The notes under the pieces were generated by a model that had not been told where the DNA came from, searched no databases, and saw nothing but the letters and a program-made list of their open reading frames with translations. Positions 3,166 to 50,500 of a DNA stretch of 64,000 nt are shown piece by piece (the stretch's first letter is position 1; each line of letters opens with the position of its first letter). The translations under genes were made by a program, and so were the position numbers. Location of the stretch: assembly GCA_017941735.1 (NCBI GenBank), contig JAGAVW010000057.1:1-64000 (forward strand), given 5' to 3'. Source of the stretch: Solobacterium sp. (lineage in GTDB: Bacteria; Bacillota_I; Bacilli_A; Erysipelotrichales; Erysipelotrichaceae).

Positions 3166-4424
3166 AATTTGTTGTTGATGTAGAACCGAAGCGATTTGAT
3201 GCATTTGCGATTGCTTGTCCACTGAATCATTATTCTAAGACAAGTCCTTTTATTGCGTTTAAGAAAGAAGAATACCAAAGTGGGAATTTACTTGGCGTGG
3301 AAGATGAAGAGGGCAATTTGATTGCGACAGCCCTCATGCTACATCGTCGTATACCTCTATTAGGAATGCAATTTAGTTATGTTCAATATGGCTTTAATCT
3401 TGCTATTGAAAATCGCGATTTAATAGCCTATTTTGCGAAACAATTAAAAGAATACGCCAAGGCAAAAGGTTCTATCTTTTTACGCATGGACTTTAATATT
3501 CCACGCTTAGAACATGATAAGAATGGGAAAGTTGTTGAAAATGGTTTTAACCATGAATATATTACCGAGATTCTAAAAGAAAATGGGTATACACATCTAG
3601 GCTATAATTATGGCTATAGTGGTAACTGGATGAGTCGTTTTACCTATCGTTTAGATTTAAATCGTCCTTTTAGTGAGATTAAAAAAGGTATCAAACGCTA
3701 TCAAACCTATCATAATAAAAATGAAATGCGTGGCGTAGCGGTGCATCCCGCCACCCAAGAAGATTTAGCAGTATTAATCCAAAGCCAAAAAGAATTATCC
3801 GCAAAACTTGGTTTTAAACCAAATGATGTCTCCTATTTCAAAAAGTTATGGGATTGCTATGAAGGGAATGTGTATTACTACATTGTTGATACGAATTATC
3901 ATCAAGCTAAATTAAACCTACAAAAAGAAATCGACAATTTAGAAATGCATCTTCAAACCCTAAAAGATGAGAATAAGAAAGAAATCACGCAAAAGAATAT
4001 CCAAGCCTTAGAAAAAGAAATCCATGAAATAGAAAATCATGGACTTGATATAGATGAAAGGAAAGTATTAGGGGCTAAATTCATCATTAAGTTAGGCGAA
4101 AATGTCTGGAATGTGAATATGTATACATTAAAGACACTTCTCAATTTTAGAGGCGCATTTGCATTACATGATTATGCCATCCAAGATATGATTGAAAAAG
4201 GGGCCAAAACCTATGATTTTGAAGGGATTTCTGGCTCAATGGATCCAAGTGATGAATATTGGGGCCAAACGGATTTTAAAAAGAGCTTTGGTGGCGATTA
4301 TTTAGAATTTTTAGGAGAATTTGATGCCATCTTTGATGAAAAGAAATATGCCCAATGGAAAAAGGCGCGAAGTCTCTATAGTCGAGTGCGCCGTAAACTT
4401 CGATTCTTAAAATACAAAAAGTAG
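3162..4424 (+). CDS. FemAB/MurM-type peptidoglycan aminoacyltransferase (second of pair)
   Basis: Second FemABX-family transferase (420 residues), likely adding a residue to the interpeptide bridge of lipid II after the first enzyme. It shares the layout: first lobe (SPFIAFKKEEYQSGNLLG, LLGMQFSYVQYGFNL), coiled coil at about residues 247-295 (LNLQKEIDNLEMHLQTLK), and second lobe (YTLKTLLNFRGAFALHDYAI, YDFEGISGSMDPSDEYWG, FKKSFGGDYLEFLGEFD). The FKKSFGG and EFLGEF elements are typical of the C-terminal lobe. The start ATG overlaps the stop of the preceding gene. The stop codon lies inside a hairpin shared with the convergent gltX. The amino acid specificity is unknown. Confidence 0.9.
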   Translation: MKFVVDVEPKRFDAFAIACPLNHYSKTSPFIAFKKEEYQSGNLLGVEDEEGNLIATALMLHRRIPLLGMQFSYVQYGFNLAIENRDLIAYFAKQLKEYAKAKGSIFLRMDFNIPRLEHDKNGKVVENGFNHEYITEILKENGYTHLGYNYGYSGNWMSRFTYRLDLNRPFSEIKKGIKRYQTYHNKNEMRGVAVHPATQEDLAVLIQSQKELSAKLGFKPNDVSYFKKLWDCYEGNVYYYIVDTNYHQAKLNLQKEIDNLEMHLQTLKDENKKEITQKNIQALEKEIHEIENHGLDIDERKVLGAKFIIKLGENVWNVNMYTLKTLLNFRGAFALHDYAIQDMIEKGAKTYDFEGISGSMDPSDEYWGQTDFKKSFGGDYLEFLGEFDAIFDEKKYAQWKKARSLYSRVRRKLRFLKYKK

Positions 4425-4443
4425 CGAAGTAATCGCTACTTTT
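4416..4443. terminator. Bidirectional terminator between the FemAB pair and gltX
   Basis: Stem AGTAGCGA (4420-4427) / TCGCTACT (4433-4440), loop AGTAA, flanked by A-runs on one side and TTTT on the other, so it works on both strands. Both convergent genes' TAG stop codons lie in the stem: 4422-4424 for the transferase and 4436-4438 for gltX. Confidence 0.85.
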
Positions 4444-5896
4444 GTAATTGTTCAATCGATTTTTGTAAACGAGATAAGGTTTCTTCCTTACCCAAGATGG
4501 TTGCAATTTCAATTGCACCACCTGGTGTAAACTCTTTACCAGTAATAGCGAGTCGTAATGGGAAGAGAATCTGTCCGTTTTTCTTTTCTAATTTTGCAGG
4601 CAATTCCATGAGTTTTTCATGGAGCGTTTCTTGCGTCCAATCGGTAATTCTTTCTAAGACTTCTTTTGAAGCAACTAAGGATTCAAGAGCAATACTTGGA
4701 TCCGTCTTCATTTTCTTATTGTTGTATAAGTTTGTATCAAAAGCAGGGAAGTTATCGAAGAAATCTAACATATCTGGAATCTCTTTGAGTGTTTGCGCAC
4801 GTGGTTGTAAGATTTGCGCAATTGCTTTTTTATCAAAGTTTCCTTTCACAGCTTCATCAATATATGGTTTTACAAGTTCATAGTACTTGTCTAAGTCCAT
4901 ATTTCTTAACCAAAGCGAGTTAATCGAAGTAAGCTTAACAATATCGAAGATAGCACCATCTTTCCCAATGTGTTTTACATTGAATGCTTGAACAAGCTCA
5001 TCTAAGGTATAAATCTCTTGATTGGTTTCAGGAGACCATCCAAGAAGAGCGATATAGTTCAAGATTGCTTCAGGTAAATAACCTTTTTCCACTAAATCTT
5101 GGAAGGAAGCATCGCCATTCCGTTTCGAAAGCTTTTGATGTTCATCTTTCATAACAGGTGGACAGTGAATATAACGTGGGATATCCCAACCAAAGGACTC
5201 ATAAATTAAGTTATACTTTGGTGCAGAACTTAAGTATTCCATACCACGAACGACATCCGTAATTCCCATTAAATGATCATCAATGACATTCGCAAAGTTA
5301 TAGGTAGGGAAGCCATCGCTTTTCATTAAGATGGATTCATCCAAGGTACTATTTTCAACAGTAATGGTCCCAAATACTTCATCATCAAAGGAAGTTGTGC
5401 CTTCTTCTGGAATCGTTTGTCTTACTACAAAGGATTCCCCATTTTCTATACGCGCTTCTGCTTCTTCGATGGATAAAGCTTTACATGGATCATCAAATTT
5501 GAAGGATTCGCCACGTGCTTCTTGTATTTCACGTTGCGCTTGAATCATTTCTTCATCACAGAAACAATAATGTGCACCACCAAGTTTCACGAGCTCTTTT
5601 GCATGGTCCATATAGATGCCACTTTGAACACGCTCACTTTGAACATATGGGCCAACTGGACCACCTAAATCAGGTCCTTCATCCCATAATAAATTACATT
5701 GTTTTAGCGTATCGTAAATAATATCGGTTGCGCCTTCCACAAGTCTTCCTTGGTCGGTATCCTCAATACGTAATAAAAACTTTCCAGCTGCATCACGTTT
5801 TGCGACTAAATAGGCATATAATGCCGTTCTAAGGTTACCGATATGCATATACCCGGTAGGACTTGGGGCAAATCTCGTGCGAATTTCACTCATCAT
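4436..5896 (-). CDS. gltX: Glutamate--tRNA ligase
   Basis: Class I aminoacyl-tRNA synthetase (486 residues) that charges tRNA-Glu. In bacteria lacking GlnRS it also glutamylates tRNA-Gln for later amidation by GatCAB. The HIGH-type motif (FAPSPTGYMHIGNLRTALYA) is at the N-terminus and the KMSKS-type motif (HQKLSKRNGDASF) is near residue 250. The helical anticodon-binding domain ends in TILGKEETLSRLQKSIEQLQ. Two adjacent ATGs (5896 and 5893) are possible, with GAGAGGAAG upstream. tRNA-Gln(CTG) lies 24 bases upstream on the same strand with no room for another promoter, so the two are likely one transcript. I did not see a glnS in this window. Confidence 0.97.
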   Translation of the reverse strand: MMSEIRTRFAPSPTGYMHIGNLRTALYAYLVAKRDAAGKFLLRIEDTDQGRLVEGATDIIYDTLKQCNLLWDEGPDLGGPVGPYVQSERVQSGIYMDHAKELVKLGGAHYCFCDEEMIQAQREIQEARGESFKFDDPCKALSIEEAEARIENGESFVVRQTIPEEGTTSFDDEVFGTITVENSTLDESILMKSDGFPTYNFANVIDDHLMGITDVVRGMEYLSSAPKYNLIYESFGWDIPRYIHCPPVMKDEHQKLSKRNGDASFQDLVEKGYLPEAILNYIALLGWSPETNQEIYTLDELVQAFNVKHIGKDGAIFDIVKLTSINSLWLRNMDLDKYYELVKPYIDEAVKGNFDKKAIAQILQPRAQTLKEIPDMLDFFDNFPAFDTNLYNNKKMKTDPSIALESLVASKEVLERITDWTQETLHEKLMELPAKLEKKNGQILFPLRLAITGKEFTPGGAIEIATILGKEETLSRLQKSIEQLQK

Positions 5897-17005: not shown

Positions 17006-19219
17006 ATGGAAGTAGAAGAAAGATTGAAAATCGTTGGAAAAGTATTCTTTATTTTGTATCGAAATGAAGATACTTTTTATAGTGTCTTAAAAGTACGGTT
17101 AGTTGATGAAACCGAAAAGAATCTAACCGTGGTAGGCCTATTTCCTACAATTGAACTCGATCGTACTTATAACTTTTATGGACATTATGTAGAACATCCT
17201 CGCTATGGCCTTCAATTTCAAATTGAAAACTATGAATTTCCACTTCCTGATGAAAGAGAAGGGGTGATTCGTTATTTATCTGGTGCACAATTTAAGGGCA
17301 TCGGTAAAAAAACAGCAATTAAGATTCTTGAAGTATTAGGGGATTCTGCTTTATCGAAGATTAAAGAAAACCCAGTTTGTTTATATGCCGTAGAAGGATT
17401 ATCGCAAGAAAAAATCGAAACGATAACCAAAGGTCTTCAAGAACAAGAAGATGGCTTAGAAGAATTAGTGCAATTCTTAAATGTTCATGGCATTGGCATG
17501 CGTAATTTAATTCGTTTAAATCAAACCTATGGCAAAGAAGCTCTACAAAAATTAAAAGAGAACCCGTATCGTGTCATTGAAGAATGTGAAGGCTTTGGCT
17601 TTGCGACAGCAGATAAAATTGCGATGTCTTTAGGATTTGAAAAGAATGATGAAAGACGTTTGTATGCATATCTTATTTCGTTATGTAGTGAATTGTGTAT
17701 GCGTATTGGCGATACTTATATTTCTTATTCACTCCTTCAAGAACAATTTGAAAAGACGTGTGAAGGGCTTATTTATGATTATGATGTAATCTATGAAAAG
17801 ACATTACATAGTCGAAAACTCATTCAAGAAGAAGAGCGTGTTTATCCTGTTGCGCAATATGATAGCGAACAATTAATATCGACCTTCTTAGCACAATTTC
17901 CATTTGTGGATTTACCACATCCTTCTGATGCGGAATTAAATAAGCATCTCGATGCTATCCAAATAGAATTTGGCTTACAATATGACGCAAAACAAGTACA
18001 AGCCATTCAATCCTTTTTTGATTATCCTTTACAAATCATTACCGGTGGGCCAGGGACTGGTAAAACTACGGTTGTGCGTGCGCTTGTGGAATTGTTTAAG
18101 CGTTTATATCCAGCAATGAGTATTGTATGTGTTGCCCCAACTGGACGCGCAGCTAAGCGCTTATCAGAATTAACTGGAACTTCAGCTACGACGATTCATT
18201 CATTACTCAAATGGAACTTAGAGACCAATACGTTTGGGGTAAACCAAGAAGAACCTATCCACGCGGATTTATTAATCATAGATGAGTTCTCCATGGTAGA
18301 TAATTGGTTATTCTCACATTTACTTGAAGCAAGTGAAGAAATACGTAAGATTTGTATCATTGGGGATGAAGATCAATTGCCAAGTGTTTCACCTGGTTCA
18401 CTTTTGCGAGATTTAATTGAATCAGAATTATTTCCTCTTGTTCGCTTAGAACATATTTATCGCCAAAAAGAGGGAAGTGATGTGATTCGCTTAGCACATG
18501 ACATTGCGCATCAAACCGTCGATTTTTCGCAATACCAACAAGATGTTGTTTTCTTTGAAATCGATATCGCACATATCAAAGAACAAGTCATTGGCATCGT
18601 TAAAAATGCGATTGAGAAAGGATATGATGTAAACGAAATTCAAGTTCTTTCTCCTATGTATCAAGGAGCAGCTGGCATTGATATTTTAAATCATGCTCTG
18701 CAAGAGGTATTAAATCCAGTTTCAAAATGGAAAGAAGAAGTACACTATGGTTATTTTATCTTCCGTGAAGGAGATAAAATCTTACAGTTAAAAAACCAAC
18801 CGGATGATGATGTATATAACGGAGATATCGGCACTCTAGTTGAAATTGTCGATGCGAAAAATAGTGAGAACCACCAATTAACTATCTATGTCGACTTTGA
18901 TGGCATCATTGTTCCTTATACGCAAGAAACATTTTCTAATATCTCATTAGCTTATTGTATTTCTGTGCATAAATCGCAGGGTGGGGAATATCCAATTGTG
19001 ATTCTACCCATTGTTCCGCAACATCGCATTATGTTACAAAGAAAACTCATCTATACAGGTGTCACTCGAGCAAGACAATCCCTTGTTCTATTAGGAAGTA
19101 TGGAAGCCTTTCTTTCTGGAATTGAAAAACAAGAGCGCCATGTGCGTAAGACAACTTTAAAAGAACGATTATTAAAAAAGATGGTTAGAAAAATCTCCCA
19201 AAAAATTTTTTATCGATAA
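17006..19219 (+). CDS. recD2: ATP-dependent 5'-3' DNA helicase RecD2
   Basis: SF1B helicase (737 residues) active in repair and replication-fork maintenance, without RecB/RecC. The N-terminal region has helix-hairpin-helix repeats (YLSGAQFKGIGKKTAIKIL, LNVHGIGMRNLIRL, ECEGFGFATADKIA). The helicase core has Walker A GGPGTGKTTVVRAL near residue 345, DEFSMVDNWLF (motif II), GDEDQLPSVSPG (motif III), and VHKSQGGEYP and YTGVTRARQSLVLLG (motifs V-VI). It begins at the base after the mnmA stop. A repeat-rich region follows the 3' end. Confidence 0.95.
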   Translation: MEVEERLKIVGKVFFILYRNEDTFYSVLKVRLVDETEKNLTVVGLFPTIELDRTYNFYGHYVEHPRYGLQFQIENYEFPLPDEREGVIRYLSGAQFKGIGKKTAIKILEVLGDSALSKIKENPVCLYAVEGLSQEKIETITKGLQEQEDGLEELVQFLNVHGIGMRNLIRLNQTYGKEALQKLKENPYRVIEECEGFGFATADKIAMSLGFEKNDERRLYAYLISLCSELCMRIGDTYISYSLLQEQFEKTCEGLIYDYDVIYEKTLHSRKLIQEEERVYPVAQYDSEQLISTFLAQFPFVDLPHPSDAELNKHLDAIQIEFGLQYDAKQVQAIQSFFDYPLQIITGGPGTGKTTVVRALVELFKRLYPAMSIVCVAPTGRAAKRLSELTGTSATTIHSLLKWNLETNTFGVNQEEPIHADLLIIDEFSMVDNWLFSHLLEASEEIRKICIIGDEDQLPSVSPGSLLRDLIESELFPLVRLEHIYRQKEGSDVIRLAHDIAHQTVDFSQYQQDVVFFEIDIAHIKEQVIGIVKNAIEKGYDVNEIQVLSPMYQGAAGIDILNHALQEVLNPVSKWKEEVHYGYFIFREGDKILQLKNQPDDDVYNGDIGTLVEIVDAKNSENHQLTIYVDFDGIIVPYTQETFSNISLAYCISVHKSQGGEYPIVILPIVPQHRIMLQRKLIYTGVTRARQSLVLLGSMEAFLSGIEKQERHVRKTTLKERLLKKMVRKISQKIFYR

Positions 19220-19345
19220 ACGATAATTCGTGAACATAAGTCGGGGTTATCTCCCAAAAACAGAAAATGCGTTTTCAAGATTTTGCTACCAAGGAAAAGT
19301 TACAAAAAATGTTTTGCTAAATCGATTGGAATTGGTAGCGCAGCC

Positions 19346-19369
19346 ATTTGCGGGTCAAAATGACCCGCA
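19346..19369. repeat. GC-rich palindrome, left copy
   Basis: Stem TGCGGGTCA (19349-19357) / TGACCCGCA (19361-19369), loop AAA, followed by TTTTAG. The same 24 bases recur at 21672-21695. It could be a terminator for recD2 (127 bases upstream) or a mobile repeat end. Confidence 0.8.
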
Positions 19370-19482
19370 TTTTAGAATTAATCAGCGGAATCGTTAGCAC
19401 TTTTCAAACGGATTGGTAACATAAAAGTATGGCGATAAAACCGTGGTTTCATATTTTATATGGCAAACGTTAAAGTAGCGAA

Positions 19483-19584
19483 ATGTTTATGTTAATGTAC
19501 ACAACAAAATGAACATAACTACGATTAAGTCTTAATAATAATGTTTTATATAAGTATTAGTTTTTGTTTATAAAAGGAAGAGAT
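19483..19584 (+). repeat. 102 bp direct repeat, left copy
   Basis: Runs from ATGTTTATGTTAATG to GGAAGAGAT and matches 21851-21952 with about three to four substitutions and no gaps. Within it TTATGTT and AACATAA form an internal 7 bp inverted repeat. Confidence 0.9.
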
Positions 19585-19651
19585 AGATCTATGTTACAAT
19601 TTAGTTAATATTATGCAGCCAAAAATCCCGGCTGTCAGAAAGGTTATAGAA

Positions 19652-20497
19652 ATGAAAGAAAAACAACGAAATCATTTAATTTCAGAGAAAGTTCCTCTTA
19701 TCGCTATTGTGTTCTGGATCATTCTCGCGTTTGTGCTGGAAATTATCCTGGACGGTCTGTTCAAAGCATTCTTTCCGTCCGACGGAACCGGAATGATCGG
19801 TAATATTTCCTCGATCTGTATGGCAATCCTGCTTATGATTATAATGAAAGTCTGGTATTCGCCACAGTATAAGGGGACGCTGAAATCCGGTTTGCCGTTT
19901 AAACTGACCCTGCTGGTTATGGGACCGATGATCATCAAGAGCGTTGTTATCCTGATCATTCAGCTGTTTCAGTTCAACTTCTGGTTCGATCCGTCCCTGT
20001 ACAATATCGTAAAGGCGCTGGCTGCCGGTTTCTGGGAAGAATGCGTATTTCGTGTGACTGTAATTCCGATCGCGATGGGATTCCTCAAAACGGAAAAGAA
20101 GATCTGGCTTCTGCCCGCCATCTCCGGAGTGATATTCGGAATTATGCATATAGTGAATATTAACGGCGGCGCCACCTTAACTAACACCCTTACCCAGGCA
20201 CTTGTGACCACCCTGGACGGCTTCTTCTACGGCGCACTGTTTGTCGTTACGGGCTCGGCCTTTCCCGGCATCATCCTGCATTCGGTCTATGATTTCATCT
20301 GCTTTGCCGGAGACAGGAGTCTTACGAATGGAATCATGACAACTTCCCTTCAGACATGGGAAATCATCTTCAACATTGTGCTTTCCCTGCTCATATTTGC
20401 CGGCGGTGTCATGATTATCAGGAAAGTCGGCAAAAACAAAATTCTCTCGGTGTGGAGAAAAAAATGGAGTCAGAAAGAAGCCGCAATTCAGGGTTGA
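19652..20497 (+). CDS. CPBP-family intramembrane metalloprotease
   Basis: CPBP (CAAX protease and bacteriocin-processing, Abi) family membrane protein, 281 residues, with about seven to eight hydrophobic segments. All three catalytic motifs are seen: EECVFR (EExxxR, near residue 130), FGIMH (FxxxH) and HSVYD (HxxxD). In Gram-positives such proteins act in bacteriocin immunity, processing or surface-protein regulation. I use ATG 19652, which has AAAGG at fair spacing; an upstream in-frame ATG at 19613 has none. Codon use (many CTG, CCG, GGC, ATC) is unlike the neighbours and indicates transfer. It is followed 55 bases later by a PrsW-type gene. Confidence 0.85.
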   Translation: MKEKQRNHLISEKVPLIAIVFWIILAFVLEIILDGLFKAFFPSDGTGMIGNISSICMAILLMIIMKVWYSPQYKGTLKSGLPFKLTLLVMGPMIIKSVVILIIQLFQFNFWFDPSLYNIVKALAAGFWEECVFRVTVIPIAMGFLKTEKKIWLLPAISGVIFGIMHIVNINGGATLTNTLTQALVTTLDGFFYGALFVVTGSAFPGIILHSVYDFICFAGDRSLTNGIMTTSLQTWEIIFNIVLSLLIFAGGVMIIRKVGKNKILSVWRKKWSQKEAAIQG

Positions 20498-20552
20498 TTG
20501 TGACTTCCTACCGGCTCTGACATTAATCGTTCAAATAAGGAGATTAAATTTT

Positions 20553-21302
20553 ATGGATTATCTTGTAGCTGTATTAACACTTCTGATCCTTGCTTTTCTT
20601 TACTGGCGTATGATCAAACGGGAGATTCCCGATCCAATCAAACCGTTCCAGGCCATCCTGCCGTTTGCACTCGGCATTCTTTCGATGATCATTTACAGCC
20701 CGTATATACTCTGGTTCATAACAAACATCGCGCCGAAAATATCTATTGCAGAAGGCATTCACCCGTTTTTCCGCGGCATGTTCAGCGCCTTCCTTATGGC
20801 TGGTTTCCCCGAAGAGGTGCTGAAACTGATCTTTATCCTCATTACCCTCGCTGTGCTCCGCTCAAAGGTCCGGAATGTATATGAATATATCCTGATCGGT
20901 GCTGCGGTCGGCGCCGGCTTTACGGTTGCGGAAGAGTGGCTGTATGCTGACAAATTCGGGATAACCACCTTGATCATGCGTACTATGAGCGTGGCAGGAC
21001 ATATGGCATTCAATATGGTCATGGCCGAATATCTGGGTCTTTCCCGTGTGGCCAAACTTACCGGGAAAGGCTCTCCTGTAAAAAATGCTATTCTGGCTTT
21101 TGTGGTTCCATGCCTCATCCATACGCTTTATGATACCTGCACAACCGGAAATACCTTCCTTCTGAATGAGTCAACTCAGATCATCGGCGCAATTCTCGGG
21201 GGCGGTGCATATATATTTCTCGTAGTCTTCCAGATCTTTGTTCTCATCCGCTTCAAAAAGAAAACAAAAGAATTCTGTGAAATGAGTGTGCAGCCGAAGT
21301 GA
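20553..21302 (+). CDS. PrsW-family intramembrane metalloprotease
   Basis: PrsW-like membrane protein (249 residues). B. subtilis PrsW cleaves the anti-sigma factor RsiW in response to antimicrobial peptides. Motifs are PEEVLKL, AEEWLY (second Glu pair), GHMAFN and LIHTLYD, which supply the Glu and His ligands of the family. About seven to eight hydrophobic segments are present and the C-terminus is basic. AAGGAG precedes ATG 20553. GC-rich codon choice groups it with the CPBP gene. No sigma/anti-sigma pair lies in the island, so the substrate is unknown. Confidence 0.85.
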   Translation: MDYLVAVLTLLILAFLYWRMIKREIPDPIKPFQAILPFALGILSMIIYSPYILWFITNIAPKISIAEGIHPFFRGMFSAFLMAGFPEEVLKLIFILITLAVLRSKVRNVYEYILIGAAVGAGFTVAEEWLYADKFGITTLIMRTMSVAGHMAFNMVMAEYLGLSRVAKLTGKGSPVKNAILAFVVPCLIHTLYDTCTTGNTFLLNESTQIIGAILGGGAYIFLVVFQIFVLIRFKKKTKEFCEMSVQPK

Positions 21303-21426
21303 GACAGAAAAAATACCTCCGCAAATGCAGAGGCTATCCTATCGGATATTAGAAGGCAATCACCGTATATCAGAGATGCGGGTTCTTTCTTTTGCGCATG
21401 CTGCAGGGGTGTCATACAATTGAGCC

Positions 21427-21660
21427 ATGAAAATCAAGCCGATCGCGAAATATCATATTCAGACTTCTGAGGAAATACGGCGGATAGTTGTTGCGCTTAC
21501 GGCTGAATACGACACATTTCCGTCAGAAACTGTTTCCGCGATACGTGATGAGCTGAAGGGGCTTTTTATTGCCGGGCATCAGAGCGATTCCAAGTACCAG
21601 GAAAATCCTGATGCGACTATAAGAAGGATGCTGCGTTTGAGTGATGCTGCAGGAAAATGA
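21427..21660 (+). CDS. Hypothetical protein, 77 aa, in island
   Basis: Unrecognised soluble protein rich in Ala, Arg and Glu, beginning MKIKPIAKYHIQTSEEIRRI and ending RRMLRLSDAAGK; predicted mainly helical. Base composition agrees with the island rather than the host. No strong ribosome-binding site is present. The palindrome starts 12 bases after its stop, so it is probably the last gene of the island. A hairpin at about 21315-21332 separates it from the PrsW gene. Real but low confidence. Confidence 0.5.
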   Translation: MKIKPIAKYHIQTSEEIRRIVVALTAEYDTFPSETVSAIRDELKGLFIAGHQSDSKYQENPDATIRRMLRLSDAAGK

Positions 21661-21671
21661 AAATTTCATGT

Positions 21672-21698
21672 ATTTGCGGGTCAAAATGACCCGCAAAT
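21672..21698. repeat. GC-rich palindrome, right copy
   Basis: Stem ATTTGCGGGTCA (21672-21683) / TGACCCGCAAAT (21687-21698), loop AAA, then TTTTGC. It is the right-hand twin of 19346-19369 and placed like a terminator for the 77-residue ORF. Confidence 0.8.
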
Positions 21699-21850
21699 TT
21701 TGCTTTTCAAGTATTGTGTTGGTAACATAATTGATTGAGTGAAGAGGCAATGAATCTCACGGAATATCAGAATGTAGAATTAAACAAAACGCTTAGCTAA
21801 AAGAATAGCCAAACACACAGAGAGGTTAAACAAAACAGTGCTTTGCTTGT

Positions 21851-21952
21851 ATGTTTATGTTAATGTACACAACAAAATGAACATAACTACGATTAAGGCT
21901 TAATAATAATGTTTTATATAAGTATTAGTTATGTTTAGAAAAAGGAAGAGAT
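21851..21952 (+). repeat. 102 bp direct repeat, right copy
   Basis: Near-identical to 19483-19584. It ends 10 bases before the stop codon of the ABC ATPase gene, which is on the other strand. Confidence 0.9.
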
Positions 21953-21962
21953 TCTTAAGAAA

Positions 21963-22760
21963 TCATCTTTTTGTTAGAACATTATCATTTGTGAATTCAT
22001 CCCCTGAAGCTTCTTCAAATTTATGTAATAAATCATCAACGGTTAGGGATTTCTTTTCTTCTCCTTGGATATCAAAGAGAATCTTACCTTCATACATCAT
22101 GATGAGCCGATTTCCAATTTGAATCGCATCTTTCATATTATGGGTAACCATTAAGGCAGTTAGATGATCTTTTTCAATAATCTCTTTTGTGATATCCAAT
22201 ACTTTCTTTGCGGTTTTAGGATCTAGCGCTGCAGTATGCTCATCAAGAAGTAATAGTTTTGGTTTTTGAAGGGAGGCCATAAGAAGGGTTAAAGCTTGGC
22301 GTTGGCCACCAGATAATAAGCCAACTTTATCAGCCATCCGCTTTTCTAAGCCTAAGCCAAGCATGGAAAGCTCTTCTTTAAAGACTGCTTTTTCATTCGC
22401 AGTGATACCCCAAGCTAAACTTCTTTTTTTACCACGGCGATTGGCCATAGCTAAGTTTTCTTGGATTTCCATATCCGCTGCGGTGCCTTTCATTGGATCT
22501 TGAAAGACACGACCGATGTATTTGGCGCGTTCATGTTCTTTTTTGTTTGTTAAATCTTCGCCATCAAGTAAGATTTCACCGGAATCGATTGGGTATACTC
22601 CAGCAATCATATTTAATATCGTTGATTTACCAGCGCCATTACCACCAATGACCGTCACAAAATCTCCATCGTTTAAGGTAAATGATACATCTTTTAAAAC
22701 AGGTGTTTCGTTGACGGTACCAATATCAAAGGTTTTCGAAACGTGACGTACCTCAAGCAT
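21963..22760 (-). CDS. ABC transporter ATP-binding protein
   Basis: ATPase subunit (265 residues) of the importer encoded by this operon. Walker A GGNGAGKSTILNMIAG, signature LLSGGQRQALTL, Walker B LLLLDEHTAALDPKTA and the switch His (VTHNM) are intact. The start ATG 22760 follows GGTGGTG and overlaps the permease stop by 8 bases; a GTG at 22772 is less likely. Its 3' end abuts the right-hand 102 bp repeat of the island. It is the last gene of the three-gene operon. Confidence 0.93.
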   Translation of the reverse strand: MLEVRHVSKTFDIGTVNETPVLKDVSFTLNDGDFVTVIGGNGAGKSTILNMIAGVYPIDSGEILLDGEDLTNKKEHERAKYIGRVFQDPMKGTAADMEIQENLAMANRRGKKRSLAWGITANEKAVFKEELSMLGLGLEKRMADKVGLLSGGQRQALTLLMASLQKPKLLLLDEHTAALDPKTAKKVLDITKEIIEKDHLTALMVTHNMKDAIQIGNRLIMMYEGKILFDIQGEEKKSLTVDDLLHKFEEASGDEFTNDNVLTKR

Positions 22761-23649
22761 GATGGACACCACCTTTCTTTGTCTTAATTAACTGTGGAGC
22801 CGTTAAGAAAAGAGCCACAAGAATCGCAGAGAATAATTTTAAATCATCTGTATTTAAGCCAAGTTGTAAGACAATAGCAATAATCAAACGATAGATAATG
22901 GAACCAAGTACAATCATGCATAAGCGAATCGCAAAGTTTGTTTGTTTACGAATCATTGTTTCCCCAATGATAATACTCGCTAAACCAATTACGATTGCAC
23001 CAATTCCTTGTTTAACATCCGCATAGCCTTGGGATTGGGCTACTAGAGCACCCGATAAAGCAACTAAGGCATTCGCAATCATGAAGCCAATGATTTTGGT
23101 GGAATCGGTATTGACGCCAAGTGAGCGTACCATGTTTTCATTGGAGCCAGTTGCTCGAATTGCAGATCCAATTTCAGTTCCAAAAAACCAATACATTATG
23201 GCAATCACAATGGCGACTACAATGATTCCTACAATGAGCGAACTATTTGTTTGGGATAAACCAACCATTGCTTCTATTTGTTTGAAAATAGTATTGAGTT
23301 TAAGAAGGGGGAGATTACTTCTTCCCATTAAACGCAAGTTGATGGAATAAACTCCTAATTGCGTTAGAATACCAGCTAAGATAGCTGGAATATGACATTT
23401 GGTATGTAATAAACCAGTCACTAGACCACCAATGGCACCACCAATGATTGCAATCGTAGTCGCTAATAGTGGGGTAATTCCTAAGGTGATTAAGGTTGCC
23501 ATAACGCAACCTCCAACCGCGAAAGTTCCATCGACAGATAAATCTGAAATCGCTAATAAGCGAAATGTGATATAGATGCCTAGAGACATAATCGACCACA
23601 AGATTCCTTGTGAGATTGCCCCTTGCATCGCAAATAGGATACCGGTCAT
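22753..23649 (-). CDS. ABC transporter permease (branched-chain type)
   Basis: Membrane subunit of 298 residues in the BPD_transp_2 (LivH-like) group. The N-terminal GAISQGILWSIMSLGIYITF and ISDLSVDGTFAVGG match permeases that pair with PF04392 binding proteins (TrpY-like). About eight to ten hydrophobic segments alternate with short loops, ending in LTAPQLIKTKKGG. It lies between binding-protein and ATPase genes, 3 bases after the former. Confidence 0.9.
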   Translation of the reverse strand: MTGILFAMQGAISQGILWSIMSLGIYITFRLLAISDLSVDGTFAVGGCVMATLITLGITPLLATTIAIIGGAIGGLVTGLLHTKCHIPAILAGILTQLGVYSINLRLMGRSNLPLLKLNTIFKQIEAMVGLSQTNSSLIVGIIVVAIVIAIMYWFFGTEIGSAIRATGSNENMVRSLGVNTDSTKIIGFMIANALVALSGALVAQSQGYADVKQGIGAIVIGLASIIIGETMIRKQTNFAIRLCMIVLGSIIYRLIIAIVLQLGLNTDDLKLFSAILVALFLTAPQLIKTKKGGVHHA

Positions 23650-46929: not shown

Positions 46930-47236
46930 ATAATTGACTCTAATCTAAAATAGCAAAGGCTCTCATTTAAATCGAGTAAGACAATCACCCATGAAACAAT
47001 TTCTAAATGCAAATAAGAGGCTCTTAAATCATGTGACCATTGTCATTAATAAAATAAATGAGCAATAAAGGATGACATAATAATATAGTAGTTTATAACA
47101 AAAAATAATAATTATTTATCTTATAATTGTGCATCAAAAACATCAAAAAAGCGCATATTTATCGCATTTTCTCAATATACGCTATATTTGTTATATACTT
47201 CGCATAATGTATGTTATGCGATTTTTATTTGGATAA
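46930..47236. other. AT-rich intergenic region with plus-strand terminator
   Basis: I see no gene. A convincing terminator on the plus strand, CGCATAA (47201-47207) / TTATGCG (47214-47220) followed by ATTTTTATTT, stands about 290 bases after the last plus-strand stop. This leaves room for an unannotated short RNA or a long 3' UTR. No convincing promoter was found inside. Confidence 0.5.
47201..47229 (+). terminator. Terminator in the deoB 3' region
   Basis: Seven-bp stem CGCATAA/TTATGCG (extended by T-A), loop TGTATG, then TTTTTATTT. It is oriented for plus-strand transcription; the minus strand has no T tract. Confidence 0.7.
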
Positions 47237-48433
47237 TTAGTCAAGTAAATTGAGGATGGATTCCCCCCACTCAGGCATCTCAACATTGAAGTTGTCGGCA
47301 ATGGTTGCGCCAATATCTGAGAATGTTTTACCAGTTCTTAAATGTCCAAAACTTTTAAAACTTGGTGAATAAAGAATGAGTGGAACCATTTCACGTGTAT
47401 GATCAGTACCAGTCCATGTAGGGTCGTTTCCGTGATCTGCCGTAATCATAAGAAGGTCCCCCTCTTTCAATAGAGGCATGAGCTTTCCTAATTTTGCATC
47501 GAAGCGCTCTAATTCACTAGCATAACCTTCGACATCACGACGATGGCCCCATTTCGCATCAAAATCGACTAAATTGACAAAGCAGAGGCCTTTCCAGTCA
47601 TCACGTTTCGCAATTTCAATCGTTTGATCCATACCATGGACACTGGATTCGGAATGTAAGGCTTCTGTAACACCTTCACCAACAAAAATATCATTAATCT
47701 TACCAACTGCAATCATGTCGTATCCAGCATCTTTTAAGCTATTTAATACGGTTCGACCGATTGGTTTTAATGCATAATCGTGGCGATTTGGGGTGCGCTC
47801 AAAGTGGTGTGCTGTTTTCCCAACAAATGGTCTAGCAATGACACGACCAACTTTCCATTCTGGCTTCATGGTAATATCACGTGCAATCTCACAACAACGA
47901 TATAATTCCTCTAAACCAAAGGATTCTTCACTTGCAGCGATTTGTAATACTGAATCAGCAGAAGTATAGACAATCATATCTCCGGTTGCGATATGATGTT
48001 CGCCAAGTTCATCTAAGATTTCAGTACCAGAAGCGGATTTATTTCCGACGACTTTATGGCCTGTACGTTCTTCTAATTCGTTGATTAATTCTGGTGGGAA
48101 GCCCGTATCCGTAAAGGTAATGAATGGTTCTTGTATATATAAGCCCATCATCTCCCAGTGACCGGTCATCGTATCTTTGGAGTTACTATGCTCTTGAAGT
48201 GTTAAATAATATCCTTTTGGGGTTTCAACAATCGGAATGAGATCATTCTCTTTCATATTGAATGTCCCTAATTCTTGTAAATGAGGCAAATCTAAATCTT
48301 CTACGTTTTCGGCAATATGCCCCATGGTATCTGCCCCTTCATCTCCAAATTTTGCGGCATCAGGCGCATTCCCAAAGCCCCATGAGTCGACTACGATTGT
48401 AAAGATACGATTATATTTTTTTACTTCGTTCAT
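47237..48433 (-). CDS. deoB: Phosphopentomutase
   Basis: Interconverts (deoxy)ribose 1- and 5-phosphate, linking nucleoside breakdown to pentose metabolism (398 residues). Alkaline-phosphatase-superfamily motifs: [39 protein letters not shown] with the catalytic Thr, [34 protein letters not shown]. Start ATG overlaps the xerD stop by 4 bases. It is last in the nusB operon; it pairs with xerD in B. subtilis as well (ripX-drm). Confidence 0.97.
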
Positions 48434-49335
48434 TTTTTTAAATCTCCTTTCTTCTTTCCTGGATGGAAACGATCATAACTTGTGAATACTTGTTTATTCT
48501 GCACATGTGTATAAATCTCGGTAGTTTGAATATCACTATGTCCTAGCATTTCTTGAATGCTTCTTAAATCCGCCCCACCCTGTAACATGTGTGTTGCATA
48601 ACTATGCCGAAGCTTATGAGGTGTAATATGTTTTTTTATATTCGCTTGGCTAGCCCTTAATTGTAGCATCTTTTCAATATAGCGAGAAGTAATTTTTCTT
48701 CCAAAACGATTAATGAAAAATAAATTCGTTTTTTTCTTTAAATAGAGTGGTCGCACAAAGTCTAAATACCGCTTGATAACTGGAATACTGCCATTTGGAA
48801 TAGGTACAATTCTTTCTTTATTCCCCTTTCCTAAAATACGTGAAATGCCAGTATCTAAGTCAACTCGATTCAAGGTTAAGGTAGTTGCTTCTGAAATACG
48901 TAAACCACAACAATAAATCAATTCTAAAATCGCATGGTCTAATAAATCTTGAGGATTCGTATCATCGAAGACCGACATCAATTGTTGGATTTCTTCTACA
49001 GTACAATAGACCGGCAAACTCTTAACACCACGATGCACATCTAAGTTTAATGATGGGTCTTCTTCATCATACACAAAGCTCATATAGTGATGAAAAGAAC
49101 GAATGGAAGCAGCTAAGCGTGTTAAACTTGTTGCCTTTTTAACATCCTTCATCTGATACATGAAATCTTCAATAATTGGATCGTTTATTTCTTTAGTATC
49201 TTCAATACCAATCTCTTCTAAGTACGCAAAATATTGATTCAAATCACTTTTATAGGATTGAATCGTACGCAAAGAAAGGCCCTGATTAACAGAGATTTCC
49301 ACTTCATATTGCCTTTTTGCTTCACTTAGTTTCAT
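48430..49335 (-). CDS. xerD: Tyrosine recombinase XerD
   Basis: Site-specific recombinase (301 residues) that with a partner resolves chromosome dimers at dif. The N-terminal SAM-like domain ([20 protein letters not shown]) is followed by the catalytic domain with Arg in [12 protein letters not shown], Lys in [34 protein letters not shown] with the nucleophilic Tyr. Adjacent deoB supports the XerD rather than XerC or a phage integrase. ATG 49335 is used (AAAGGG upstream); GTG 49353 would extend into dinB. Confidence 0.9.
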
Positions 49336-50500
49336 GATTCCCTTTTGCCTCACTCGCCCGAATCAGTTTATCGCTACCTAATAAACGATTTAATTCTTTT
49401 AATACACTATTTGTTTCTTCTTTTTGGGAAGCTTCATAATCAAATAAATTGATTTGACTGCTGATTTGATCGCGTTCTCTTAAATCAGATAATGAGATAC
49501 CTAATAAACGAATGGGTTCTTCATCCCATACCTCATCAAATAAACGTAACGCATGCACATAGAGGTCTTCACTTTTCCATATCGGTAAATCGAGTTTAAT
49601 CGAGCGATCTCGATTATGAAAATCAAAATATTTAATCCGAATCGATAAAGTATAACCTACCTTCTTTTCTTTATATAAGCGTTTCGATAAACGCCGCGCA
49701 AGGGTTCGAAATAAACCAGATATTTCATCATAATCCGTCATATCTTCAATCATAGTTTCTGATACACCCATGGATTTTGGATCCCATTCTTCCACTATTT
49801 CACGTGTATCATAGCCATGCGCTTTACGTATCATTTCTTCTGTATTCTTACCAAAAATAGGTATGAGATCGTTCGTTTCTGTATAATTCGCTAAATCACC
49901 TATGGTTTGAATGCCTAAATCTTTCAAATATGGGACTGTTTTAATCCCTACTCCACGCATATCTTCGATTGGTAAAGGCCACAATTTTTCTTCTACATCA
50001 CGTATCCGAAGAACCGTAATACCAAGAGGCTTTCGCATGTCACTTGCCATTTTTGCAAGAAAAAGATTTGGCCCTACCCCTATCGAACATGGTAAATGCA
50101 GTTCATTTAAAACTTGTTTTTGAATGCGCCAAGCAAGATCTAAAGGTTTTTTGTATTTTTGAATTTCAGTTGTTACATCCAAATAACATTCATCAATGGA
50201 TGCTTGCTCATAGGCATCTGCATATTGTTTTAAGATGGCAATAAACTTTTCCGATAGTTCGCTATACCATGTAAAATGATGATTTACGACAACAAGCTCT
50301 GGGCAAAGTTGTAAGGCCTCTTGTAAAGGCATTGCAGAGTGAATTCCATAGGCTCTAGCTTCATAGCTTGCAGTCGAAACAACGCTTCTTCTTGAGTGGC
50401 CAGAAACGACTAAAGGTAATCCCTTTAATTCTGGATTTAGAAGAATCTCTGCATTTGCATAAAACGCATTTAAATCAACATGAAAGTAGATACGAGACAT
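49322..50500 (-). CDS. dinB: DNA polymerase IV (DinB)
   Basis: Y-family translesion polymerase (392 residues). The palm begins YFHVDLNAFYANAEILLNPE, with catalytic Asp here and in EQASIDECYLDVT. PLVVSGHSRRSVVSTASYEA, SIGVGPNLFLAKMASDMRKP and the HhH region MRGVGIKTVPYLKDLGI follow. The little finger domain spans about 240-350. It sits between recN and xerD, overlapping xerD by 14 bases, so repair genes are grouped in this operon. Confidence 0.96.
   Translation of the reverse strand: MSRIYFHVDLNAFYANAEILLNPELKGLPLVVSGHSRRSVVSTASYEARAYGIHSAMPLQEALQLCPELVVVNHHFTWYSELSEKFIAILKQYADAYEQASIDECYLDVTTEIQKYKKPLDLAWRIQKQVLNELHLPCSIGVGPNLFLAKMASDMRKPLGITVLRIRDVEEKLWPLPIEDMRGVGIKTVPYLKDLGIQTIGDLANYTETNDLIPIFGKNTEEMIRKAHGYDTREIVEEWDPKSMGVSETMIEDMTDYDEISGLFRTLARRLSKRLYKEKKVGYTLSIRIKYFDFHNRDRSIKLDLPIWKSEDLYVHALRLFDEVWDEEPIRLLGISLSDLRERDQISSQINLFDYEASQKEETNSVLKELNRLLGSDKLIRASEAKGNHETK

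Follow-up and report, generated by a model that had tools for sequence, protein, structure and literature searches.

How did three genes, with no recombinase among them, come to lie between two direct repeats in a stretch of DNA whose composition differs so sharply from that of its neighbours? The locus belongs to a genome that we call G000 (a 1.95 Mb assembly, a 67-contig draft) and sits in the window, that is, the whole 64 kb stretch of DNA that was analysed. GC content is 0.43-0.49 between the repeats versus 0.31-0.41 for the neighbours, and GC3 reaches 0.58 in the CPBP gene and 0.54 in the PrsW gene versus 0.21-0.41 for all other window ORFs that reach 100 aa. Thus, both measures bear out the claim of an earlier note on this DNA that the base and codon use of the three genes is unlike that of their surroundings. 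The two 102 bp repeats lie at exactly 19483-19584 and 21851-21952, where that note had placed them, and the ORF list and family scans agree with it that no recombinase is encoded between them. In fact, these same ORFs and scans revealed no recombinase, relaxase or transfer genes anywhere inside the unit.

The boundaries of this unit became apparent in comparison with a second genome, G023. In a BLAST search against the corresponding locus (L005), the window aligned at 98% from position 19583 to position 21952, that is, from just past the left repeat to the very end of the right one. Because the match starts after the left repeat and ends with the right repeat, the movable unit consists of the genes plus a single repeat, carried at its right end (Table 1). 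The earlier picture of a bracket was right in that two repeats surround the genes, but the bracket is not symmetric, each repeat being the right end of a unit. Likewise, an island of 19346-21952 does not describe what moves: the movable unit is 19585-21952, and an older unit reaches back to ~19188. Position 19346 is the first base of a perfect 24 nt repeat of 21672-21695, a palindrome or terminator (ATTTGCGGGTCAAAATGACCCGCA). The left edge of the cassette, AGCTC (AGATC in G000), is found at the same place in G000, G023 and a third genome, G014.

Table 1. Features of the recD2-ABC locus (positions in the window).
Feature	Position	Strand	Details
recD2 helicase gene, left flank	17006..19219	+	last codons inside LE-like sequence; overlaps the LE match 19192-19284
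Left-end-like sequence (LE) of older resident unit	19188..19326	+	core 19192-19284; nhmmer 91 bits; model search E 2.5e-16
Palindrome of older unit	19346..19369	.	same sequence as 21672-21695; probable terminator in both directions
Left 102 bp repeat, right end RE1 of older unit	19483..19584	+	terminal TTATGTTTA arm decayed
Mobile cassette	19585..21952	+	2,368 bp; 98% identical in G023 (whole) and G014 (assembled parts), at another locus; BLAST to L005 and L014 and junction reading
CPBP / Rce1-like intramembrane protease	19652..20497	+	PF02517, E 5.5e-13, above curated cut-off
PrsW-family intramembrane protease	20553..21302	+	PF13367, E 1.7e-21; 77.1 bits vs cut-off 23.5
77-aa ORF (ORF3), no confident family	21427..21660	+	conserved: G023 99%, G014 96%
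Right-end region RE2 of cassette	21672..21952	+	281 bp: terminator, ~150 nt, 102 bp repeat
Palindromic terminator after cassette genes	21672..21698	+	12-pair stem; fold z -5.2
Right 102 bp repeat	21851..21952	+	inverted motifs at 21855 (-), 21878 (+), 21929 (-); unit end GGAAGAGA(T)
ABC-transporter ATPase gene, right flank	21963..22772	-	stop codon 10 nt from cassette end

The two repeats are 93% identical without gaps and 95% identical in the BLAST alignment. They differ at several positions, so that their longest exact common stretch is only ~45 nt. A whole-genome search recovered only these two copies in the assembled genome, so that the repeat is not a common dispersed promoter element, an alternative that the earlier note had raised. 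The complete right-end region RE2 is 98% identical in G014 and 96% in G023, and no further full-length copy was found among 273 family genomes. A structured RNA element was also considered and rejected, as there was no credible Rfam match.

Where else does the cassette occur? A protein search identified congeners with the same genes; most or all of the genomes compared are draft or metagenome assemblies. In G023 and G014 the cassette is preceded by nrdD, and a STAS gene, a mechanosensitive-channel-like gene and nrdG come after it; the middle of the unit is out of sight in G014, where contigs break within it. In G000 itself, nrdD is directly followed by nrdG, with no insert. Between G000 and G023 the unit is 98% identical and the dS of PrsW is 0.023, versus DNA identities of 62% for the ABC gene and 59% for recD2, host genes for which dS is saturated. 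This discrepancy points to recent horizontal transfer, and a recent horizontal insertion of the cassette in G000 is well supported by these comparisons. The donor was probably a relative of higher GC (0.475 for L005). The earlier note had also considered relatives that carry the genes without the repeats: all close copies (~98-99%) keep the right-end repeat, and it is the distant G027 and G031 that have the genes without it. There, CPBP and PrsW (93% and 84% amino acid identity for PrsW, respectively) lie as two genes in repeat-free loci that look native. Searches of plasmid and phage collections gave no match to the island; viral contigs held neither the right-end pattern nor a CPBP or ORF3 relative. 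A separate scan with a 15-base pattern was uninformative, the pattern being too short.

The earlier note had proposed to look for an empty site with a single 102 bp copy between recD2 and the ABC gene, and sites without the island exist. In eight congeners (G036, G064, G035, G007, G053, G002, G021 and G024) the two genes are convergent neighbours, 17-171 bp apart as measured from alignment ends, and there is no island. None of the eight is closely related to G000, which means that these gaps are not empty sites at the strain level. Together with the other locus in distant congeners, the empty sites nonetheless uphold the foreign origin and mobility that the note had claimed for the island. By eye, differing single-gene inserts (e.g. 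Rpn-like and HD/RelA-like ORFs) lie between recD2 and ABC at L168, L179, L181, L184 and L185. The presence of such unrelated inserts in several congeners indicates that the gap tolerates insertions. A 37 kb insertion considered at this site in G031 was dropped because the two contigs cannot be joined.

In G000, however, the cassette seems not to have entered an empty gap. Upstream of the left repeat lies a diverged copy of the cassette right-end region, with the same 24 nt palindrome followed by TTGGTAACATAA and the order kept. Further upstream, the AT-rich LE is common to G000 and G031, where it follows recD2, and to G023 and G014, where it follows nrdD. Among the 273 family genomes the LE model strongly matches only these four, which are those that built the model, the window sequence included; weaker matches elsewhere (E above 4e-4) were taken as AT-rich noise. 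A right-end-like region and an LE, both to the left of the cassette, suggest that an older member of the same family entered the 3' end of recD2 and decayed, and that the cassette became attached to the right end of this older unit. This older unit seems to have shrunk to ~0.4 kb (~19188-19584). Its counterparts vary: the right end that precedes the cassette amounts to 102 bp in G000, to 27 bp in G014, where the left neighbour holds a DUF4379 zinc-finger gene fragment and the palindrome and ends in those 27 bp of repeat, and is degenerate in G023, where the left neighbour differs again.

Other palindromes came to light in these searches. Downstream of nrdD, L296 (G051) and L297 (G033) both carry an A/T palindrome, CCAAAAAAAATTTTTTGG, followed in G051 by the LE-like GAACATAA; both might represent diverged members in the same position. 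In G027 (contig C36; L222, ~3200-5200), the 24 nt palindrome recurs with one mismatch, flanked on one side by a serine-recombinase/IstA-like gene pair and on the other by a methyltransferase-like gene. A further match in G059 falls inside a coding gene and was taken as chance.

The ends themselves are rich in a short motif. TGAACATAA and its inverse occur at 6 sites in the 695 nt of both ends, versus a mean of 0.46 expected, a density reached in 0 of 300 simulations. Right ends have the form GTTATGTTnA-14 nt-TGAACATAAC, from which the window copies depart at the first base. The left neighbour in G023 retains this inverted pair with a different spacer. At nrdD, the composite has a direct duplication on either side, which begins precisely at the right end and measures 12 bp in G023 (AAGAGAACGGGA; 0 of 2000 shuffles) and 10 bp in G014 (AGGGAACGGG; 0.0005 in shuffles). 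A single base distinguishes the two genomes here, yet within each genome the two sides agree, a pattern that suggests independent insertions into one site. Alternatively, a single ancestral insertion, followed by correction, may be common to both genomes, in which case the duplications need not be independent. No direct duplication was found around the G000 composite at recD2.

Such duplications recall a non-autonomous DDE-type transposon (MITE-like), whose transposase would act in trans and make 10-12 bp target duplications, the tandem in G000 then being two separate insertions. That the duplications sit precisely at the right end, and that subterminal motifs are repeated in both ends and mutually inverted, would fit this reading. 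The lengths to be reconciled with a fixed-length target duplication are 12 and 10 bp at nrdD and none at recD2. Against a DDE element, LE and RE share motifs but no clear terminal inverted repeats, only a weak TCTC...GAGA besides the subterminal motifs; moreover, insertion at gene 3' ends and recurrence at recD2 and nrdD are more site-specific than is the case for most DDE elements, and the searches turned up neither a multicopy family nor a matching transposase. We consider such a transposon unlikely, though by no means negligible. Could the cell instead have done without any dedicated recombinase? DNA from a G023-like donor might have recombined by homology in the resident 102 bp, through a Campbell-type single crossover of a circle or through duplication. 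In favour of this, the 102 bp that the relic has in common with the incoming unit (95% identity) stop abruptly against unrelated sequence, and both G000 copies have a T (GTTTATG) that is missing from the donors. Yet homology explains neither why the left boundary, AGCTC, is the same in G000, G014 and G023 although the left neighbour differs in each, nor the 10-12 bp duplications at nrdD, and this origin strikes us as fairly improbable.

Given a draft in 67 contigs and an island 98% identical to that of another species, one may also ask whether the assembly is a chimera, in which the island of a G023-like genome in the same sample became joined via the 102 bp repeat. The repeat copies share ~45 exact bases at most, and the left junction (GGAAGAGATAGATCTATGTTACAATTTAG) is unique to G000 and unlike every donor junction, which makes such an artefact highly improbable. 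Recombination at a Xer/dif module was rejected as well, since no site of the element scored above the window background when compared with two reference dif sites. The best dif-like match of the window, at 18/22 arm positions, is an inverted repeat at 47197-47224 (ACTTCGCATAA-TGTATG-TTATGCGATTT), with a gene for a XerD-like tyrosine recombinase ~1.2 kb away (48430-49353, minus strand); the repeat could equally be a terminator.

To explain the locus, we propose, with moderate confidence, that the cassette is a recently acquired, non-autonomous integrative element that is CIME-like, stands in tandem with an older relic and is mobilised in trans. Its anatomy and mobility are plain from the exact boundaries, the second locus, the empty sites, the single repeat per unit, the shared left ends and the 10-12 bp duplications. 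The older unit would have entered the 3' end of recD2 and decayed while keeping its own left and right ends. A recombinase supplied in trans would then act on the ends that bear TGAACATAA, and the incoming element would probably settle beside the resident relic by accretion, as has been described for CIMEs. That the 102 bp repeats might serve a circular cargo as its recombination sites, as the earlier note suggested, would fit this anatomy. Simple accretion, however, predicts an LE at the internal junction, GGAAGAGAT/AGCTC, and there is none. Searches with the end sequences found no cognate ICE or IME, integrase, transposase or complete relative.

What, then, does the cassette carry? The CPBP ORF spans 19613-20497, and the ATG at 19652 is preferred from comparison with relatives; its translation has the EExxxR, FxxxH and HxxxD motifs, read as EECVFR, FGIMH and HSVYD. 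The PrsW protein does not reach the equivalog cut-off that NCBIfam sets for PrsW proper. Between G023 and G027 its dN/dS is ~0.09, a value indicative of purifying selection; the corresponding CPBP values were left out, since the G000 and G023 genes had been translated in the wrong frame. The best NCBIfam match of the 77-aa ORF, to a three-helix-bundle dimerization domain, is sub-threshold (E 0.019), and PADLOC and PHROGs scans of the cassette gave no significant match. In distant Oscillospiraceae and Atopobiaceae (L008, L013), too, a CPBP gene sits next to a PrsW gene, and in the repeat-free loci of G027 and G031 the pair lies near genes for double-glycine-leader peptides. No recognisable leader-peptide gene was found beside the pair on the mobile cassette. 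SilX, a CAAX protease, is required for bacteriocin production (PMC9298176), and a link between PrsW and the processing of toxins has been described (PMC3482391). Most likely, therefore, the cargo serves peptide processing or self-protection and immunity, a role that we infer from such associations: the two membrane proteases might process a double-glycine-leader peptide of bacteriocin type, or shield the cell from it. One contig of G031 (C284:1-40000; L280/L281) looks like a peptide or bacteriocin cluster: near the ABC gene it holds two CPBP genes and PrsW together with double-glycine-leader peptides and condensation-domain-like proteins, all named by eye.

The exact boundaries, empty sites and duplications provide a clean case in which genes have recently passed between distant members of one genus in ruminant guts. 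With these in hand, the responsible recombinase becomes searchable! If the cargo does confer immunity to, or processing of, a peptide bacteriocin, such functions travel alone, apart from the peptide genes.

Parts of this design are familiar from other systems. The cassette shares its protease families (PF02517, PF13367) with Abi/CPBP and PrsW genes near bacteriocin and polymorphic-toxin loci, and its relatives lie near double-glycine-leader peptides; unlike those loci, its own pair has no recognisable leader-peptide gene next to it and its 77-aa ORF has no confident family. Small gene units with a conserved ~100 bp site on the 3' side, arranged as tandem modules with varied neighbours, are reminiscent of integron gene cassettes. 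However, the 102 bp sequences lack an attC-like fold (DNA fold z +1.0 and -1.6), the boundary (GGAAGAGAT/AGCTC) has no GTTRRRY, and no integron integrase was found nearby; the weak folds and the missing boundary motif rule out integron attC. A gene-cassette system of a non-integron type, made of cargo and a 3' recombination site of ~100-280 bp at which a trans recombinase adds units serially, the first of which, at a housekeeping-gene 3' end, would be marked by the shared left end, would preserve the likeness, but we find it improbable.

CIMEs are cis-mobilizable elements, decayed ICE or IME relics that retain attL and attR, and accretion of the ICESt1 type is known from Streptococcus. A review of these elements (PMC5704250) covers direct repeats of 8-60 bp, insertion at housekeeping-gene 3' ends, accretion in tandem and CIMEs that have decayed. 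The units described here differ from CIMEs in being very small (0.4 and 2.4 kb) and in having an internal junction without a left end. One likeness may be the short direct duplications, which accompany the cassette at nrdD, if not the G000 composite. Like CIMEs, the cassette is devoid of recombinase and transfer genes, its family inserts at the 3' ends of housekeeping genes (recD2 in G000 and G031, nrdD in G023 and G014), and its units stand in tandem, sharing an end.
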